Translations under genes and position numbers: made by a program
The notes under the pieces: generated by a model
Database searches by the model: none
The model's input: the letters and a program-made list of their open reading frames with translations, nothing else
What the model was told of the DNA's origin: nothing
Origin: Paenarthrobacter sp. GOM3
GTDB lineage: Bacteria; Actinomycetota; Actinomycetes; Actinomycetales; Micrococcaceae
DNA length: 64,000 nt
Assembly (NCBI RefSeq): GCF_018215265.2
Contig: NZ_CP136562.1
Span: forward strand, 2,976,001 to 3,040,000
Direction: 5' to 3'
In this document: positions 56,772 to 64,000 of the stretch, piece after piece
How positions within the stretch are numbered: the stretch's first letter is position 1
Layout: each line of letters begins with the position of its first letter

Positions 56772-57538
56772 TGCCGACGCCGGACTTGCTGACCGGGGAG
56801 CTCACCCTCACCGGACGCATCACGACGGCATCCAACGCCACATTCCTCGGCACCATCGGCGAACTCGTGGTGGTCTACAAGCCCAGGGCCGGTGAGAGCC
56901 CGCTCTGGGATTTTCCCAGCGGTACCCTGGCGCATCGTGAGGCTGCCGCCTACAAAGTTTCCGAAGTGTTCGGCTGGAACATCGTGCCCCACACCTGGTT
57001 GCGCGATGGGCCGCTGGGCGAAGGGATGGTCCAGGCCTGGCAGGAGGAAGACCCCAGCCAAAATCCAGTGGACCTCGTTCCGGCAGAGGCCGTACCCGGC
57101 AGCGACTGGAAACAAGTGCTCCGCGGGCAGGGCGAGGACGGGCAGATGGTGGCCCTTGTCCATGAAGATTCAGCGGCGCTCAGGAGAATGGCTGTGTTCG
57201 ACGTCGTGGTCAACAACGCCGACCGCAAAGGCAACCACATCCTGGCCATGACGGAGGGCCACCGCCACGGCGTAGACCACGGGCTCACCTTCCACCACGA
57301 ACATAAGCTGCGCACGGTGTTGTGGGGGTGGATCGGAGACGCCCTGAACGCCGACGAACTCGAAGGCATAGATCGTGTCCGCGAAGGGCTCCAGGGTCAG
57401 CTGGGCCAACAACTGGCAGACCTGCTTAGCGCAGAAGAAGTCGAAGCACTTGCTCTGCGCTGCGACCGCTTGCGCTCTGATGGGCAATTCCCCGCGCCCA
57501 GCGGACAAGCGCCCGCGGTGCCCTGGCCGTTGTTTTAG
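56771..57538 (+). CDS. SCO1664 family protein (PI3/4-kinase-like fold)
   Basis: 255 residues from the ATG at 56771, overlapping the DUF3090 stop. VYKPRAGESPLWDFPSGTL is the N-lobe lysine region; AVFDVVVNNADRKGNHIL and GVDHGLTFH carry Asp/Asn/His residues placed as in phosphatidylinositol-kinase-like folds. It is conserved next to the phosphatase and DUF3090 genes. Unlike many actinobacteria, no mshC follows. Confidence 0.87.
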   Translation: MPTPDLLTGELTLTGRITTASNATFLGTIGELVVVYKPRAGESPLWDFPSGTLAHREAAAYKVSEVFGWNIVPHTWLRDGPLGEGMVQAWQEEDPSQNPVDLVPAEAVPGSDWKQVLRGQGEDGQMVALVHEDSAALRRMAVFDVVVNNADRKGNHILAMTEGHRHGVDHGLTFHHEHKLRTVLWGWIGDALNADELEGIDRVREGLQGQLGQQLADLLSAEEVEALALRCDRLRSDGQFPAPSGQAPAVPWPLF

Positions 57539-57587
57539 GGGCGAACTCCAGCATCATCAAGCCATGCGCTTTTGCTGCTCCCTGCCG

Positions 57588-58112
57588 TCAACCAATCATG
57601 TACGCGAATCCGCGCCTGTCCGAAGCCACCGTGGCTGCAAACCGGCTGGCTCGATGTAGATACTCGGTAGCGTAGGCCGCATCAGCTTCCCATGAACTAG
57701 CAGGCGAGAGGCTTCCGCTGAGGCTGGCTATGATGTCGTGGTCACTAATGTTTTCAAGATCCCGGGCGATCGCCGCGACAACGTCCGGCGGAAGGGCGCG
57801 CACCCACGGTCGCCATGAACAGCCGTCGTCGTCGAAATCCACCTGCCCCTCGAACATTTGATAGGCCATCCTCGGTGTGGCGCCTGGGTGTCGGGCAGCA
57901 GTGGCCAGTCGCAGGTATCTCCACGCTTTGTCAAGGTACAGGAAGTCACCTTCTGGAAGAGCCGGCCGAGAGCCCACGATGCCCAGCGAGGACCATGGCT
58001 CTATACCCCACGCATCCGCGAGTGGGTCGGATCCAATCACGGAGCGGGGGTCAGCAAGTGCTCTCGTGGTCTGATCGCTGTCAAAGGCATAAGCGTAATA
58101 TCTGATTCCCAT
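57588..58112 (-). CDS. DUF1877-like hypothetical protein
   Basis: 174 residues. The opening MGIRYYAYAFDSDQTTRALA and FLYLDKAWRYLR resemble actinobacterial DUF1877 proteins; the C-terminal half is compatible. No membrane or export signal. Candidate -10 CAGACT lies six bases before the ATG. It lies on the chromosomal side of attL, in the position that would follow ychF before integration. Function unknown. Confidence 0.65.
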   Translation of the reverse strand: MGIRYYAYAFDSDQTTRALADPRSVIGSDPLADAWGIEPWSSLGIVGSRPALPEGDFLYLDKAWRYLRLATAARHPGATPRMAYQMFEGQVDFDDDGCSWRPWVRALPPDVVAAIARDLENISDHDIIASLSGSLSPASSWEADAAYATEYLHRASRFAATVASDRRGFAYMIG

Positions 58113-58236
58113 AAAGACAGTCTGCGCCGGACAGCGTGCTGCCCAGCACAGAAAACTGCCTTATGTGGGTAAACGAGCGGCTGCCTAACAGGATGCCGCC
58201 CTATGCTCTAAGGGCACCAAACCGGTCCGCACTGCT

Positions 58237-58253
58237 ACACGTTGAAGCGGAAC
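58237..58253. repeat. attL core, 17-bp direct repeat
   Basis: ACACGTTGAAGCGGAAC, identical to the 3' end of ychF 4.7 kb away. The flanking sequences on either side differ. Confidence 0.78.
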
Positions 58254-58374
58254 GTACCTTATTTACCCTCGTATTCCCCCAGCGGCCCGCAACTGCTGAT
58301 TCTTGGGAGGTTTTGAGCCAACAGGAGCTGTTCCTGCCCTTGGATTCCCGGCCATGCTGCGGACTTTTTGCGGA

Positions 58375-58614
58375 CTACGCGAATGGATCATGCCCTACGC
58401 CCGATTCCTCCACCCAGTCAGTCGGCCCCTTTTTCCGCTGACGTAGCCAAGCGACAATGTTGGCAACGTCGTCCTCGTGGAGCAAGACCTTGTCGCGGCT
58501 TCCTCGCGTATGATGTCCAGACTCTATGCTGTAGCGCCGTAACTCCGTCTTCGTCAAGCCGAGCTCGGGGGCAACTTCTTCTGGCGTACGGAAGACGCTG
58601 TTCGGAATCGTCAT
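58375..58614 (-). CDS. Small HTH DNA-binding protein (excisionase/MerR-like)
   Basis: 79 residues from the ATG at 58614. VFRTPEEVAPELGLTKTELR and YSIESGHHTRGSRDKVLLHE form a MerR/excisionase-type winged-helix, followed by DVANIVAWLRQRK. A TAGGAT -10 box seven bases upstream supports this start. Within an integrated element it is a candidate directionality factor or repressor. Confidence 0.65.
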   Translation of the reverse strand: MTIPNSVFRTPEEVAPELGLTKTELRRYSIESGHHTRGSRDKVLLHEDDVANIVAWLRQRKKGPTDWVEESGVGHDPFA

Positions 58615-58621
58615 AGGAACG

Positions 58622-58627
58622 ATCCTA
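58622..58627 (-). promoter_or_regulatory. -10 box of the small HTH gene, leaderless
   Basis: TAGGAT on the minus strand, seven bases before the ATG at 58614. Confidence 0.5.
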
Positions 58628-58676
58628 GATGCTCGGTTCTGAGTAGGATACGGCCATGGTTGAACAGCGTTCCTAA

Positions 58677-58899
58677 ATGACCGCCCAAAGAGATGGCTGC
58701 GAAGTAACGCATCGATGATGGGGCGGTGAGGCGTGAGGCCCAGGCGGGCGAATGGCGTTGTGGCCGTATCGGCCGGCTCTACCGGTTCTCCCCCGACCAG
58801 CAAAACGAAATCGCGCAAATTATTCCAACCGGCCCCGCCCTGCCCATGACAGAGACCAATTCGCAGCAACCCCTACGGAATCTAACGGGAGGTAACTAG
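58677..58899 (+). pseudogene. Remnant of an excisionase-like DNA-binding gene
   Basis: The frame from 58705 reads RIDDGAVRREAQAGEWRCGR and then IGRLYRFSPDQQNEIAQII. The R-I-G-R-L-Y-R-F pattern is the wing of excisionase/HTH-17 proteins. An in-frame TAA (58705-58707) lies just upstream. A short frame from the ATG at 58677 (TAQRDGCEVTHR) stops at 58718, as if one frameshift separates the halves. Its last 57 codons could still be translated from a GTG at 58726. Confidence 0.45.
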
Positions 58900-58958
58900 T
58901 TCGTCCAATGGCGCCAGTTGCCAAGTCCAGCCCTCCGGGCATCGCCAAAAAGCCGTGT

Positions 58959-59443
58959 CTACTCTCCTGGTAACGGCCGCGGACACGCCCCCCGCGTCAC
59001 AGGACAGACTGCGGGATCATATGGAGTCGTCGCGGCTCCTGTCTGTAGCCCCTCTCGCGTCACCGGGTCGGGAGTGAGATACCTTGCAATGGGGAGTATA
59101 GACACCTTCGAAGCCCCTTGACGCTTGGCTTGGATTGCCAGTGATAGTGCATTTCCACCCGACACCCAGGAGTCCTCCAATATCAGCAAATGGTCCCCGT
59201 TCGGCGAGACGGAGAAATCGAAGTTCGCTTCTGTCTCCTGGAATCGGGCAAGGTCCTCCCATGGACATTTGAGCCGGGCCGATGGGAGCCCAGGTTTCTT
59301 CGCCTTCTTCCTCCATCGCTATAAACGCGATGGGGATGCTTGACTCCCAGTTTGACTACGCGCACTTCTTAAAGGCTGTCGTTCTTACGGGCTCGGTATG
59401 CCCAGTGGGAGTTGATCGCTAGTTCTGAGGCTTGCTTGACCAT
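58959..59443 (-). pseudogene. Decayed gene: conserved hypothetical N-part joined to a phosphoribosyltransferase C-part
   Basis: From an ATG at 59443 the frame reads VKQASELAINSHWAYRARKN and hits a TAA after 24 codons, then continues EVRVVKLGVKHPHRV. A second frame gives IAFIAMEEEGEETWAP and a third gives ARLKCPWEDLARFQETEANF. Together these match one protein with two frameshifts and one nonsense codon. The third frame goes on to HLLILEDSWVSGGNALSLAI, a PRPP-loop-like motif, and ends TPYDPAVCPVTRG, as in actinobacterial phosphoribosyltransferases. TAAATT six bases before the ATG is a relict leaderless promoter. Confidence 0.6.
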
Positions 59444-59566
59444 TGGTGGAATTTATCAGCAGAAGGCGTTCGCGAGATAGATCCTTTTGTCTCCGAAGGG
59501 AGGTCGTCAACCAGCTTCAAGTGCCTATGGTCGCAATGCCGGTAGAAGGAGCGTGCTGTAACGGCT

Positions 59567-60148
59567 CTACTTTGTGGTCGGCGAGGGGCTGGGACTCGCT
59601 TCCTGCCTGTCCAATTCCTTGTAGATTGCGGTTTGGTCTCCGGCGATGCAGACGGTGTCCATCTCCAGACTGGAGCCTTTAATGTTTGCGTAGTAGGACA
59701 GAAGGTGTCCGCCGTTCTCGTCAGCGTAGAGGCGGATGAGACCTGGGTCCCGGGGGTTGGTTTCGGTTCGGGTCGTGAAGCCCTTGGATTCCCAGAACGT
59801 TCTGACGACGTTTACTGACGCTTCCAGATCGACGGGGTCGGAAGTTTGGCTCAGGATACTGTAGTTCACTCCGTCTTGCCGGTCGGATGTGCTGCAGGCG
59901 CTGTTGACAGGGTTGTCTGTATCCGCCCATTTTTGGGTTCCGATGACTTTTTGGGTTTCGGTTTTGAAGGCGTGGAGATCCTTGAGGGCTTGTTTTAGTT
60001 CTTCTACCCGGGCTTTGACGGTTGCGGGGTCGCTGTTGTTTGAGCCGGTCATGGGGTTCTCCGTGGTAGGGGGCGTGCAGGCGGTCAGTGCAAGAGTCGC
60101 GCAGAACAATCCGGCGAGTATGCGGCGTGCCTTGGGTTCATGGGGCAT
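59567..60148 (-). CDS. Lipoprotein of unknown function, candidate partner of the DUF1023 hydrolase
   Basis: 193 residues from the ATG at 60148, with AGGAAG ten bases upstream; the frame also opens at a TTG (60175) overlapping the hydrolase stop. Lipobox ATLALTACTPP gives a lipidated Cys at residue 24. The mature part starts with a helical segment (TVKARVEELKQALKDLHAFK) then a mixed fold with cysteines in SACSTSD and DTVCIAG. It ends in a Ser/Pro tail. Tight linkage downstream of a hydrolase with secretion-like N-terminus suggests an immunity or chaperone lipoprotein (inference). Confidence 0.75.
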   Translation of the reverse strand: MPHEPKARRILAGLFCATLALTACTPPTTENPMTGSNNSDPATVKARVEELKQALKDLHAFKTETQKVIGTQKWADTDNPVNSACSTSDRQDGVNYSILSQTSDPVDLEASVNVVRTFWESKGFTTRTETNPRDPGLIRLYADENGGHLLSYYANIKGSSLEMDTVCIAGDQTAIYKELDRQEASPSPSPTTK

Positions 60149-60171
60149 GTGGTTCACTCTTCCTGAGTTGT

Positions 60172-62226
60172 TCAACGGCCCGCAAATCCAGCCGGTGGCG
60201 ATACGGGTCGTGCGCCTGGCAGGATTCGGTCTCCGTTGCCGGTTGTTGTTAGGGCAGCTTCATACAGGGCGGTAGTTCCCTTGTCTAGGTACCCGTAACC
60301 GCCACCGCCCTTTTCGTTCACCAGTGTGTTGTGTTCGGTCGTGCCTTGGTACTGGGTCCCCTCGATTGTGGCCTCTTCCGAGGAGAACACATTCGCACCG
60401 AAGGACTCCAGCCGCGGATCCTGGCGTTGGAAGCGACCCAAATCAGCCAGTCCGTCACCGCTGGCTTCGGTGGTGTAGACCTGCCCGGCGGGCACGTGGA
60501 GATCTCCGGCGTTCCGGATCTCTTTCTCTATCCCGGCCGAGCCGAGCATCGTGAAGGAAGCGACGTTCAATTCCGCGGACGCGAGGGCGTTGGATGTCAC
60601 AGTGGTGCCGTAGGAATGAGCCAGCACGTTCAAGGTCTCCGGGGCCCTGTTACCCAAACCCTCTCTGACGGCGTTGAACCCCTGAAGGTCTGTGACGAAC
60701 CGTTCGGCGCCGGCCCGTGCTGCATCACCGCTGTTCACGGTCGGGACCGTGGGCGGTTCATAGTTGATCCACGCCACCACGGCAAAGGACTCGCCTGGGA
60801 AAAGCCGCTGTTGTTGCCGTTTCAGGTTGTTGGCGTTTGCTGCCCAGCCGTTGAAACCGCTTTGAGGGGTAATGAGCATGCCGGACACAGCGTAGGTAAC
60901 GTTGTCAGCCGTATCGGGATTACCCGCAGAGACCTGTGCTTTCGGTGAGCCGTGAGTCAGATCGAAACCCAGCAGGACAGCTTTGGTTCCGCCCGCGTTC
61001 CTCAGTGCATCGGTGATGCCGTTCAGGGCTTTTTGTTGGGTTTGCAGCCGTGTCCAGGCCGGGTTGGTCATGGACATGCCTTGGCTGGCGGGCAGGAATG
61101 GAGGCGTTCTGGCGAGTTCGGCGTTGATGCGCTCCTGCTCGGTGACGAGGCGTTTGCGGTTGGCGAGGTTCCGGGCGGTCGCGGTGATTCCGTTCAGGTT
61201 CCCGATGACTCCGGGGATGGCCTCGATCAGGAGCAACTGGGCCTCGCCGGGTTCAATTGCCCCGTCGACGATTGTGTGGCCGAGACCGGCCCACCACTTG
61301 GCTGTCACTACGGGGTCAAGCCCCGGTCGGCTGAGGAGTCCCTGAAGTCGGTCCTTGTTCGCAGGGGCGGCGAGCCAGGCTTTCAGTTGTGCGGCGTTCA
61401 GGGCCCCGATGTCGTTCAAACCGATTTGCCCTGGTGGTGCGTACTGTATGAGGGCGCTGTTGAGCATGGTGTCGGCCATGGAGCCGCTGCCGGCTGTTTC
61501 GAATGCCGCGGCGATCTGCTCAAGCCACGTCGCGTCAGCGGCGTTTTCAGTCAGCAGTTCCTCGAATCCCGACACAAACGTGACACTGCCGCTGTTCACC
61601 CACGAACACGCTGAGGTGAAACCGCTCCACGCATTCCGGATTCTCCCCAGCTCCACGTCCAGGATGTTCGCGGCGGCCCGGGACTGGGACACGAACCCGC
61701 GCAGCTTTCCAGGATCAGCCGAGCTTGTTCCGCCTCCCGATCCACCGGCAAACCGGGCCCGGTCGCGTGCGGAAAACACCGCCGAAATCGTTGGCGGCGC
61801 AACCCGCGTTTCCTCGGGTTTCGGATCATCTACCGTGCTCAGCAGGGCCGCCGACTGGCGGGCTGGGTCGAGGGACGCCAGTTCCTGTTCACGAACATCG
61901 GCGCGTTGCCTCCAGGCAGCAAGTTTCTTCTGCCGGGACTTCTCCTCCCGTGCTTTGAGCTTCGCTTGCCGGACGTCCTCCGCCAACATCGCGAGAACAC
62001 CGGCAAGCCTGGCGCGGTCATCACCCCTGATGGCACAAGCCTGGGTGAACAACCGGGCGTATCCTCCTTTGAAGTCCGCCACGGCGTGATCCATGGTTCC
62101 GTCCAGGAATCCACCCTCGCCACGCAGAACCTGATCCGCTGAATCAGCAGCACTGATCAAAGCGTCGGCAGCGCCATCATCAAAGACGATTCCGACGGCT
62201 GGGCTGTCATCATAGGTAAAACTCAT
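60172..62226 (-). CDS. DUF1023 alpha/beta hydrolase with helical N-terminal domain
   Basis: 684 residues from the ATG at 62226 (GGGGGACGGG upstream). The N-terminal 110 residues are strongly helical and charged (DDRARLAGVLAMLAEDVRQA and following), resembling secretion-domain helices of WXG/LXG proteins. The middle is helical. The C-terminal 250 residues are the DUF1023 alpha/beta hydrolase with nucleophile Ser in LNVLAHSYGTTVTSNAL, an acidic loop YTTEASGDGLADLG, and His in TTEHNTLVN. No signal peptide, so export, if any, would need a leaderless route such as type VII. Probably a lipase or esterase. Confidence 0.8.
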   Translation of the reverse strand: MSFTYDDSPAVGIVFDDGAADALISAADSADQVLRGEGGFLDGTMDHAVADFKGGYARLFTQACAIRGDDRARLAGVLAMLAEDVRQAKLKAREEKSRQKKLAAWRQRADVREQELASLDPARQSAALLSTVDDPKPEETRVAPPTISAVFSARDRARFAGGSGGGTSSADPGKLRGFVSQSRAAANILDVELGRIRNAWSGFTSACSWVNSGSVTFVSGFEELLTENAADATWLEQIAAAFETAGSGSMADTMLNSALIQYAPPGQIGLNDIGALNAAQLKAWLAAPANKDRLQGLLSRPGLDPVVTAKWWAGLGHTIVDGAIEPGEAQLLLIEAIPGVIGNLNGITATARNLANRKRLVTEQERINAELARTPPFLPASQGMSMTNPAWTRLQTQQKALNGITDALRNAGGTKAVLLGFDLTHGSPKAQVSAGNPDTADNVTYAVSGMLITPQSGFNGWAANANNLKRQQQRLFPGESFAVVAWINYEPPTVPTVNSGDAARAGAERFVTDLQGFNAVREGLGNRAPETLNVLAHSYGTTVTSNALASAELNVASFTMLGSAGIEKEIRNAGDLHVPAGQVYTTEASGDGLADLGRFQRQDPRLESFGANVFSSEEATIEGTQYQGTTEHNTLVNEKGGGGYGYLDKGTTALYEAALTTTGNGDRILPGARPVSPPAGFAGR

Positions 62227-62312
62227 GCCCGTCCCCCATAAAGCGAACAATAAATCCAACGACTAGCATAACCCCTGTTTGTTCTGCTGACGGACTGACC
62301 AGCCGGACTGTT

Positions 62313-62318
62313 TAGGAT
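62313..62318 (+). promoter_or_regulatory. -10 box of the recombinase fragment, leaderless
   Basis: TAGGAT six bases before the ATG at 62325. Confidence 0.45.
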
Positions 62319-62324
62319 GTATGG

Positions 62325-63182
62325 ATGCCCGATGAAATCAATAAGCCTGGGTTCGTGCCCTTCGTGGCCATGTGTGCATTCGCTGGACTGCGTCTCGGGG
62401 AGGCAGCTGCCGTTCAACTCACCGATATTGACTTCCTGCGACGGACATTGAAGGTGCAGCGCGCCGGCAAAGGCGAAGTGACCATCACTCCCCCAAAGTA
62501 CGGATCCGAGCGACTCGTGCACATCCCGAACGGGCTTGTGACGATGCTGGCCCAGCAAGTGGAGCAGATCGGAGTGCACAGTCCGCAGCAGTGGCTCTTC
62601 CTTGGTGACGGAGGCCTGCCGCCACATCAGAACACGGTGGGCTATTGGTGGCGGAAAACGGTAAAGGCCGCAGGTCTTGAAGCTGTGAAGCTCCATGACC
62701 TGCGGCACTTTTACGCGTCAGGGTTGATTGCGGCGGGCTGCGATGTCGTGACCGTTCAGCGGGCCTTGGGCCACTCCAAGGCGACCACGACGCTGAACAC
62801 TTATGCCCACCTGTGGCCCACGGCCGAGGACCGCACGAGGTCTGCTGCCGGCGCCATGATGGATGATGCTCTCGGCATTACTGCGGACTCGGAACGCCTA
62901 GGCCCTGAAAACAAGCGGGAAAACGGCCAGAATCACACGTTGAAGCGGAACTCAACCACGTCGCCGTCGGCCATTACGTATTCTTTACCTTCAATACGGA
63001 CCTTGCCGCGGGACTTTGCCTCAGCCATGGAGCCGGCGTCGACGAGGTCGTCGAAGGAGACAACCTCAGCCCTGATGAAGCCGCGCTGGAAGTCGGAGTG
63101 GATGACGCCGGCTGCCTGGGGTGCGGTGTCACCCTGGCGGATCGTCCATGCGCGGGTTTCCTTCGGGCCAGCAGTGAGGTAG
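62325..63182 (+). CDS. Tyrosine recombinase, truncated: catalytic domain only, reading into ychF antisense
   Basis: 285 codons. Catalytic residues are present: Arg in CAFAGLRLGEAAAV, Lys near TPPKYGSERLVHIP, HDLRHFYASGL (His/Arg), GHSKATTTLNTYAHLW (His and nucleophile Tyr). The N-terminal core- and arm-binding domains are missing, since only 65 bases separate it from the hydrolase gene. After about residue 203 the frame crosses attR and continues through the antisense strand of ychF to 63182, so the last 80 residues are not native. Probably non-functional alone. Confidence 0.75.
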   Translation: MPDEINKPGFVPFVAMCAFAGLRLGEAAAVQLTDIDFLRRTLKVQRAGKGEVTITPPKYGSERLVHIPNGLVTMLAQQVEQIGVHSPQQWLFLGDGGLPPHQNTVGYWWRKTVKAAGLEAVKLHDLRHFYASGLIAAGCDVVTVQRALGHSKATTTLNTYAHLWPTAEDRTRSAAGAMMDDALGITADSERLGPENKRENGQNHTLKRNSTTSPSAITYSLPSIRTLPRDFASAMEPASTRSSKETTSALMKPRWKSEWMTPAAWGAVSPWRIVHARVSFGPAVR

Positions 63183-64000
63183 GTCTGTAGGCCTAGAGTG
63201 TGGAATCCGACGCGCGCCAGCTGGTCGAGGCCAGACTCGCTCTGACCGTTCATTTCCAGCATTTCGCGGGCTTCTTCCTCGTCCAGTTCAACGAGGTCTG
63301 ATTCAAGCTTGGCGTCCAGGAAGACCGCGTCGGCCGGGGCAACGAGGGCACGGAGTTCTTCCTGCTTGGCCGGGTCGCCCAGGATGCCTTCATCGGCATT
63401 GAAAACGTAGATGAAGGGCTTGGCCGTGAGAAGTCCGAGCTCCTTGAGGTGCTCCATCTCCAGTTTGTCGCTCTTGATCGAGCTGAAAATGGTGTCGCCG
63501 CGCTCCAAGACAGCCTGGGCCGCTTTGATGGCCGCCAGTTCGGCAGCTTCGCGCTTCTTGATCTTGACTTCTTTTTCGATGCGCGGAATCGCGTTTTCGA
63601 TGGTCTGAAGGTCGGCCAGGATCAGTTCAGTGTTGATGGTCTCCATATCGGAGCGGGGATCCACTTTGCCGTCCACGTGGATGACATCCGGGTCATCGAA
63701 CACACGGACCACCTGGGCAATGGCCTCGGCCTCGCGGATATTGGCCAGGAACTTGTTGCCCAGGCCTTCACCCTCGGAGGCGCCCTTCACAATGCCCGCG
63801 ATGTCCACGAAGGATACCGGCGCAGGCAGCAGCTTCTGCGAGCCGAAGATCTCGGCCAGCTTCGCGAGGCGCGGATCCGGCAGGTTGACTACACCCACGT
63901 TCGGCTCGATCGTCGCGAACGGATAGTTCGCGGCGAGCACCTGGTTACGGGTCAGTGCGTTGAAAAGGGTTGATTTGCCGACGTTGGGCAGTCCGACGAT
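62933..64000 (-). CDS. ychF: Redox-regulated/ribosome-binding ATPase YchF, 5' end outside window
   Basis: An Obg-family P-loop NTPase that prefers ATP and binds ribosomes. 355 residues are visible, missing only the first few. G1 [17 protein letters not shown], then [37 protein letters not shown], the N-A-D-E variant of G4 (VFNADEG) and the C-terminal TGS-like [20 protein letters not shown], with [20 protein letters not shown]. The last codons double as the attachment core of the neighbouring element. Confidence 0.95.
62935..62951. repeat. attR core, 17-bp direct repeat in the ychF 3' end
   Basis: ACACGTTGAAGCGGAAC; on the ychF strand it encodes the end of the F-R-F-N-V C-terminus plus the first base of the stop codon. 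Identical to attL. Confidence 0.78.

Follow-up and report, generated by a model that had tools for sequence, protein, structure and literature searches.

A probable integrative element, now decayed, at the ychF 3' end

Does the 4.7-kb block beside ychF in the 64-kb stretch of DNA analysed here (the window) represent an integrated element, and did that element use the 3' end of ychF as its attachment site? A first-pass annotation, made from the letters of the window, had proposed both. We compared the ends of the block, its genes and its surroundings with those of related genomes.

The repeat and the genes that it bounds

The features of the locus are listed below in window coordinates.

57588..58112, minus strand: 174-aa gene of the left flank, outside the insertion; adjoins ychF without the block in genome G126 and lies near ychF in G226 and G142
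58237..58253, plus strand: attL core, the putative displaced original ychF end; exact match to 62935-62951, aligned with the G126 ychF end when the flanks are joined
58254..58266, plus strand: element-side arm GTACCTTATTTAC adjoining attL; from the ACGTTGAAGCGGAACGTACCYTA scan of 206 genomes
58375..58869, minus strand: 164-aa ORF within the block; no family matches
59567..60175, minus strand: 202-aa ORF, presumably lipoprotein-like; no family matches above the cut-off
60172..62226, minus strand: 684-aa alpha/beta hydrolase, either cargo or a later insertion; PF06259, E 2.1e-19
62325..62942, plus strand: tyrosine integrase remnant, catalytic domain alone; PF00589 and PHROG matches, homology to a full-length relative over 62343-62897
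62933..64000, minus strand: ychF, the attachment gene, extending past the window; PF06071 and MMR_HSR1
62935..62951, plus strand: attR core, the final ychF codons and stop TGA; exact repeat, reading frame and PF06071

The 17-bp sequence ACACGTTGAAGCGGAAC occurs in two identical copies (58237-58253 and 62935-62951) that bound the block, as the first-pass annotation had stated. It had also identified one copy with the last codons of ychF, and the right copy indeed ends the minus-strand ychF (PF06071, E 3.8e-39). On that strand the left core reads GTG TAG and the right core GTG TGA, which bears out the claimed change of stop codon at attL. Recurrence by chance had been thought unlikely, and in the 4.46-Mb genome the 16-bp core has exactly two exact copies, both of them the block ends; the nearest other match is a single 1-mismatch site ~2.2 Mb away, followed by eight 2-mismatch sites. 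Genome-wide uniqueness, the alignment of the joined flanks and the core counts across genomes (see below) together lead us to reject a chance or dispersed repeat. A tRNA attachment site is rejected as well, ARAGORN having found no tRNA within the 64-kb window.

The integrase fragment (PF00589, E 5.4e-22; PHROG integrase, E 3.1e-35) aligns to residues 176-364 of a 368-aa relative, and ~175 N-terminal residues are missing. Its open frame (62325-63182) reads through the core into ychF, the normal stop having been lost. The tyrosine recombinase fragment reported beside attR is thus present, but as the catalytic part alone and in a frame that runs into ychF. Full-length integrases are found in six other genomes (G034, G089, G164, G185, G016 and G141). 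No other phage gene was recognised in the block by Pfam or PHROG profile matches. The hydrolase ORF, whose frame is also open in a longer version from a TTG at 62259, has partial copies at other places in the same genome; G008 has a homologue (76%) on a contig other than that of ychF. BLAST clustering showed that the cargo of the block has only the integrase in common with other elements.

The ychF 3' end in related genomes

When joined through one core copy, the window flanks align without a break to the block-free genome G126 of the same genus (79.4% over 1,749 columns), a different species in which the ~100 bp immediately left of the core align poorly. A second alignment, to G226, gave 67%. 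Relatives without the block therefore join the flanks through a single core copy, the arrangement that the first-pass annotation had proposed to look for. In G142, ~575 bp separate the flank gene from the core. Element-free genomes show the left flanks of the occupied sites of G089, G185 and G125 continuing via the core into ychF; the element-free genomes used for these other elements were G062, G001, G007, G029, G023, G182 and G061. In the differences left of the core, attL follows the host and attR follows the element (for example in G034).

In G126, which lacks the block, the 174-aa gene also lies beside ychF, and this rules it out as part of the insertion; its match to Pfam DUF1877 (E 0.027) is below the cut-off. 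A core-like sequence with 2-3 mismatches lies at the far side of this gene in G126 and G142 and may point to an older insertion there. It gives only a hint, since further 3-mismatch sites are present at other points of these stretches.

The survey covered 206 genomes of the genus, the window's own included, and ychF was detected in 203 of them at E <= 1e-60. The end signature ACGTTGAAGCGGAACGTACCYTA, with <=1 mismatch, occurs in nine genomes and in each lies 1.2-27.4 kb away from the 3' end of ychF (reversed-pattern control, 0). Additional exact copies of the core occur in 23 genomes, and in 20 of these they share the contig of ychF and lie downstream of the gene in the same orientation (control, 0); the 15-bp exact core is missing in 51 of the 206, so that counts based on the core overlook divergent sites. 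The suggested search for integrase genes at the 3' end of ychF found that all nine close integrase relatives abut the gene, as does one in G493, which belongs to another genus of the family. The residents vary in state: that of G036 is a remnant just 1.2 kb long; in G205 a second core was not found within 39 kb and the far end of the element was not located; and G104, with a 70% integrase, has two cores ~76 and ~95 kb from ychF, between which a second element probably lies.

Mobile elements are known to insert at the 3' ends of genes, as prophages and islands do at icd, guaA and groEL sites. The present site resembles these in that the core comprises the last codons and the stop, the element restores the gene end and the integrase adjoins the restored end; it differs in its target gene, ychF. 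The list of integration hotspots thereby gains the 3' end of another conserved protein gene, for which the exact att sequences are at hand and several species offer corresponding empty sites.

The first-pass annotation knew of no use of ychF as an actinobacterial site, and we found no such report in open-licence PMC papers (preprints and most subscription papers lie outside that scope). The gene is, however, a known prophage neighbour in Streptococcus pneumoniae: according to three papers, prophage group PPH005 and the satellite prophage PhiBM6001.4 are likewise integrated beside ychF (PMC8637289, PMC10383233, PMC6375853). That insertion is intergenic, on the upstream (promoter) side of ychF, and uses another core, whereas the site described here is the 3' coding end. 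We regard as new the ychF 3' end as a site, its status as a hotspot and its satellite-like residents.

Origin of the block

Sequence comparison establishes the att repeat, the empty site, the integrase-att order and the repeated use of the site. The block (58237-62951) very probably descends from an integrative element that a tyrosine recombinase inserted site-specifically at the ychF 3' end and that has since decayed. The integrated-element reading of the first-pass annotation is upheld with three qualifications, namely that the element is a decayed remnant, that the 174-aa gene left of 58237 belongs to the flank and that ychF was already known as a prophage neighbour, on its upstream side, in S. 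pneumoniae. We infer the spacer position, the direction of exchange and past mobility. Strand exchange would most likely have occurred inside ACGTT-GAAGCGG-AACGT, where 7 bp separate inverted 5-bp half-sites that are complete on the element side only. The element would have supplied a duplicate of the final ychF codons, followed by a stop of its own, so that YchF stayed intact and now ends in TGA, and the original end (TAG) would have been pushed to the far side as attL. With its integrase truncated, the element in the window is hardly able to move on its own. Besides this truncation, what counts against the explanation is that G126 is another species and aligns poorly just left of the core, that G142 has the extra ~575 bp, that the cargo is not shared with the other elements and that G205 lacks a second core within 39 kb; an excised or circular form is not visible in the assemblies compared.

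Could the left copy instead be left over from a partial ychF duplication, or be a chance motif, with the block as ordinary host DNA? In favour of this, displaced copies in some relatives retain ~26 bp of the ychF end, as expected of a duplication, and the window cargo has no phage hallmark except the integrase. Yet identity ends at the core and gives way to a conserved arm unrelated to ychF, an integrase always adjoins in close relatives and the reversed-pattern controls are zero; the joined flanks fit an empty site, and this alignment already largely refutes the idea, which we consider highly improbable. A composite history, refining rather than opposing the decayed-remnant explanation, stands evenly balanced: a ychF-site element would have come first and later been mostly deleted and replaced by an unrelated insertion (the hydrolase and its neighbour) that removed the integrase N-terminus. 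The abrupt start of integrase homology at 62343, the hydrolase copies elsewhere in the genome, the G008 homologue away from ychF and the very short G036 remnant are consistent with this history; against it, we identified neither a boundary repeat nor a transposase that would belong to such a second insertion.

Larger residents and their integrases

Larger elements at the ychF site measure 8-27 kb, and several carry integrase, regulator, replication and excisionase-like genes, the integrase having an overlapping upstream HTH gene and the replication gene lying on the opposite strand. Five (G034, G016, G185, G089 and G164) show most features of the satellite gene set. A small terminase is convincing in G185 only (phrog_1496, E 8e-19; PF05119 below the cut-off). 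Three residents (G034, G016 and G185) have a tail tape-measure gene, and two relatives at yajQ sites also keep tape-measure and replication genes. Capsid, portal and large terminase had no match among the ORFs scanned of the larger relatives, which are part of all their ORFs.

With PICI-type phage satellites the larger relatives share the integrase/HTH pair, replication and excisionase-like genes, the small-terminase-like gene of G185 and sizes of 10-19 kb. They differ in that three carry a tape-measure gene, and the window's copy differs in having a truncated integrase alone: the PICI-like set (regulator, replication, excisionase, small terminase) is absent from the block, which holds the integrase fragment and non-phage ORFs. 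It is close to an even call whether the block descends from a phage satellite of the kind that several of these residents resemble. An ordinary temperate prophage, with the tail-gene relatives as variously eroded prophages, is a serious but somewhat less than probable ancestor. In its favour, major head, portal and large terminase genes accompany a 51% identical integrase on one metagenome contig, tape-measure and tail proteins are ordinary in prophages, and a tail-like protein of G034 weakly matches phrog_697, filed under head and packaging (E 9.7e-6). Against a prophage, the three tape-measure residents and the two yajQ-site relatives keep tape-measure and replication genes with no head or packaging match among the ORFs scanned, and element sizes are 10-19 kb.

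More tentatively, and rather doubtfully, the ychF site may host an actinobacterial satellite lineage with its own tape-measure, which might set or replace the helper tail; its integrases would have moved among the ychF, yajQ, glnA and glpX 3' ends, and competitors may close the site through synonymous ychF ends that mismatch the core. The locus points to satellite-like elements with a tail tape-measure gene in Arthrobacter and relatives, and this is directly testable.

Other conserved genes, namely yajQ, glnA and, once, glpX, have related integrases at their 3' ends, largely by clade. Since the targets largely track the family tree, these enzymes offer a good system for studying how tyrosine integrases switch targets. 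A scan of named genomes found three loci, in Paenarthrobacter sp. AR 02, a Blastococcus and Arthrobacter liuii, and a scan of viral contigs found one clear integrase relative (the 51% one above) and one weak, partial one (26%). Phage records matching the integrase number 801, all at <60% identity; the integrases of Rhodococcus phage Sleepyhead, Arthrobacter phages Kukla and TripleJ and corynephage 304L are homologous over >90% of their length but only ~30% identical.

Repeats, empty sites and probable strand exchange at the ychF 3' end

The 17-mer ACACGTTGAAGCGGAAC occurs exactly at 58237-58253 and 62935-62951 of the window, its right copy forming the end of the minus-strand gene ychF, as the first-pass annotation had proposed for an exact direct repeat with one copy in the last codons of that gene. 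Its further claim that the repeat is very unlikely to be a chance recurrence holds, in that the only exact copies of the 16-bp core of ACACGTTGAAGCGGAAC across the complete 4.46-Mb genome (window, G000:C1:2976001-3040000) are these two. YchF retains its C-terminal FRFNV in the window and in relatives with a classified downstream gene, in agreement with an insertion that leaves the protein intact, and the recombinase fragment described beside attR was recovered as a PF00589 match adjoining ychF.

Features of the block
58237-58253: left copy of ACACGTTGAAGCGGAAC, attL
between the repeats: alpha/beta hydrolase (PF06259)
between the repeats: 202-aa lipoprotein-like ORF
between the repeats: 164-aa ORF, no family match
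between the repeats, adjoining ychF: tyrosine integrase fragment (PF00589)
62935-62951: right copy of ACACGTTGAAGCGGAAC, attR, end of ychF (gene on the minus strand)

The earlier observation is confirmed and its interpretation as an integrated element is supported; the block is a decayed copy of such an element.

Window positions 57001-58253 were fused to 62952-64000 and compared with seven relatives. The predicted joining of the flanks to ychF through one repeat copy in element-free relatives was seen in G126 and G226. In G126 a single alignment spans the fused junction (79.4% identity, 1,749 columns), good in the flank gene, core and ychF and poor or gapped in the ~100 bp left of the core; a homologue (64%) of the 174-aa gene that precedes 58237 adjoins ychF there, with no block between. 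The G226 alignment also spans the junction (67% over 778 columns). The alignment breaks in G142, where ~575 bp separate flank gene and core, and in G191, G197 and G114 ychF and a further-left gene, ending ~105-196 bp from it, align as separate pieces. The seventh relative, G034, has its site occupied by an element.

For other occupied sites, 29 ychF loci were searched with ten left flanks, each of 1.5 kb except that of G164 (only ~140 bp). The flank of G089 reads across the core into ychF in G062 (where the core is an inexact copy), that of G185 in G001, G007 and G029, and that of G125 in G023, G182 and G061 (344 columns). The match of the G141 flank is a second core copy in G015, not an empty site, and the remaining six, the window's included, gave no core-reaching match among the 29 loci. 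A core-like sequence with 2-3 mismatches lies at the far side of the 174-aa flank gene (57588-58112) in G126 and G142 (loci L169, L171), and because of it this gene may be a leftover of an older ychF insertion.

The attL core of the window's type reads ACGTT-GAAGCGG-AACGT, with inverted 5-bp half-sites flanking 7 bp; ychF itself contributes ACGTT-GAAGCGG-AACTC. Lambda-type tyrosine recombinases would be expected to use sites of this layout, with inverted half-sites around a short spacer. Because variation left of the core, in the stop codon and wobble base, is host-like at attL and element-like at attR (in G034, TAG/GTC at attL and TGA/GTG at attR), strand exchange probably falls to the right of these differences, and the element would probably supply its own stop codon to ychF.

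Recurrence of the element and target choice of its integrase

A search with P0001, a full-length integrase relative, gave 25 matches at E <= 1e-45 in 24 of the 206 same-genus genomes. All nine integrases at least 79% identical to P0001 adjoin ychF (G034, G089, G164, G185, G016, G141, G205 and, truncated, G125 and the window), which answers the suggestion that int genes abutting the ychF 3' end be sought in other genomes. G036 has a 68-aa integrase remnant beside ychF, and G008 an int-like scar. The far-end signature ACGTTGAAGCGGAACGTACCYTA, on the element side, was found with at most one mismatch in 9/206 genomes, every time near ychF (reversed control, 0 matches in 206). A tenth match, with two mismatches, lies 26.8 kb from ychF in G100, for whose element the clustering shows no related integrase. 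The far end of the G205 element was not found within 39 kb.

Element lengths (kb)
window 4.7; G034 16.3; G016 14.9; G036 1.2; G089 10.4
G164 19.2; G185 10.2; G125 8.2; G141 27.5; G100 26.8

Sorted by downstream gene through its C-terminal sequence (the window's own by hand), 44 integrase loci comprised 10 at ychF, 11 at yajQ, 11 at glnA and 12 others. Pfam searches of representatives returned glutamine synthetase in one and DUF520 (the YajQ family) in two; among the other loci, a glpX-type fructose-bisphosphatase lies beside one and a glycosyl hydrolase 3 at another, and no family was found at a further one. On a tree of the 40 integrases that reach 300 aa, from which four shorter rows were omitted, the four target labels required 6 changes against 22.4 in shuffles, a value as low in 0/200. 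One supported clade holds seven of the eight ychF rows; the eighth, from another genus (G493), lies outside it.

Gene content of the relatives: satellite or prophage

The int start is overlapped by a gene of one BLAST cluster in G034, G016, G185 and G141; in the three scanned, it had helix-turn-helix/repressor family matches in G016 and G185 and a weak one in G034. AAA, replication-initiation or primase-like genes lie on the strand opposite int in G034, G016, G089, G185 and G164, as do weak excisionase-like matches, that of G185 being on the int strand. G185 also carries a small-terminase-like gene and an HNH endonuclease. Tape-measure proteins are encoded in G034 (1006 aa), G016 (755 aa) and G185 (598 aa). 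Arthrobacter phages Hum25 and Pitbull encode counterparts with ~50% identity to the G034 protein across 94% of the latter's length. Tail-fibre-like proteins occur in G034 and G164, with a G089 homologue by BLAST, and G164 has a minor tail protein. Capsid, portal and large terminase gave no match among the ORFs scanned, a part of the elements' ORFs; the best match of one tail-like G034 protein, a weak one, is phrog_697, a family of the head and packaging category. Among three yajQ elements examined, G177 and G157 have tape-measure genes and G207 has none within ~9 kb of int.

Tape-measure genes
at ychF: L056:7625-10645; L057:5940-8207; L104:11494-13290
at yajQ: L109:16302-19358; L110:642-3959

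These five elements measure 10-16 kb, and none of their scanned ORFs matched a capsid, portal or large terminase.

The leading reading of the relatives at ychF is that they are PICI-like satellites. Against a purely satellite nature stands the 11-kb IMG/VR contig L127, where genes for major head, portal and large terminase accompany a 51% related integrase, as in a prophage or capsid-forming relative. We therefore consider the PICI-like satellite reading, though the leading one, only about evenly balanced; the window's own block does not itself conform to it.

The ychF end as a hotspot

The exact 15-bp core is present in 155/206 genomes and in at least two copies in 23 (reversed control, 0 copies in 206). 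Of these 23 genomes, 20 have their additional core or cores on the same contig as ychF, ~1-95 kb downstream of the gene and in the same orientation; in G113 and G139 the second core is on another contig, and the remaining genome is G209. Several types of sequence follow the extra core.

Sequence after the extra core
GTACCTTAT: the window's type
ATACCTAT..., ATACTTTTC... or GTATTTTC...: G068, G137, G015, G086, G087
single-case types: G133, G011, G104
TCCACCACGTTNCGTARC or similar, ~26 bp of ychF end kept: G024 (twice), G014, G031, G032, G104, G122, G148, G208, others

From these sequences we read several element types as apparently sharing the ychF site, the TCCACCACGTTNCGTARC type with a core shifted slightly into ychF. 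The first type (GTACCTTAT, the window's) is the one studied in depth.

Prophages of S. pneumoniae insert beside ychF: those of group PPH005 between it and a DUF951 gene (PMC8637289), and a satellite prophage on its upstream side (PMC10383233); in 19A ST320 a prophage alters the ychF promoter (PMC6375853). The gene is therefore already known as a prophage neighbour on its 5' side, whereas the window's element uses the 3' end. Searches of open-licence papers found none that describes ychF as an attachment site in actinobacteria. The site is new and the mechanism known; a wider hotspot comes with it, and the candidate satellite lineage behind that hotspot is of interest.

Synonymous changes inside the core of the present ychF end occur in the displaced-core genomes G004, G031, G014, G011 and G208, and such changes might block re-integration. 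Their displaced core-like copies lie 1-6 kb downstream of ychF (L016, L018, L020, L027, L181). The last YchF residues are altered in G104; there a core copy accompanied by a 70% related integrase lies ~76 kb from ychF (L132; L108:9513). In G024 (L212) three tandem exact cores, spaced by 2.0 and 3.3 kb, lie downstream of ychF and would represent stacked insertions or remnants.
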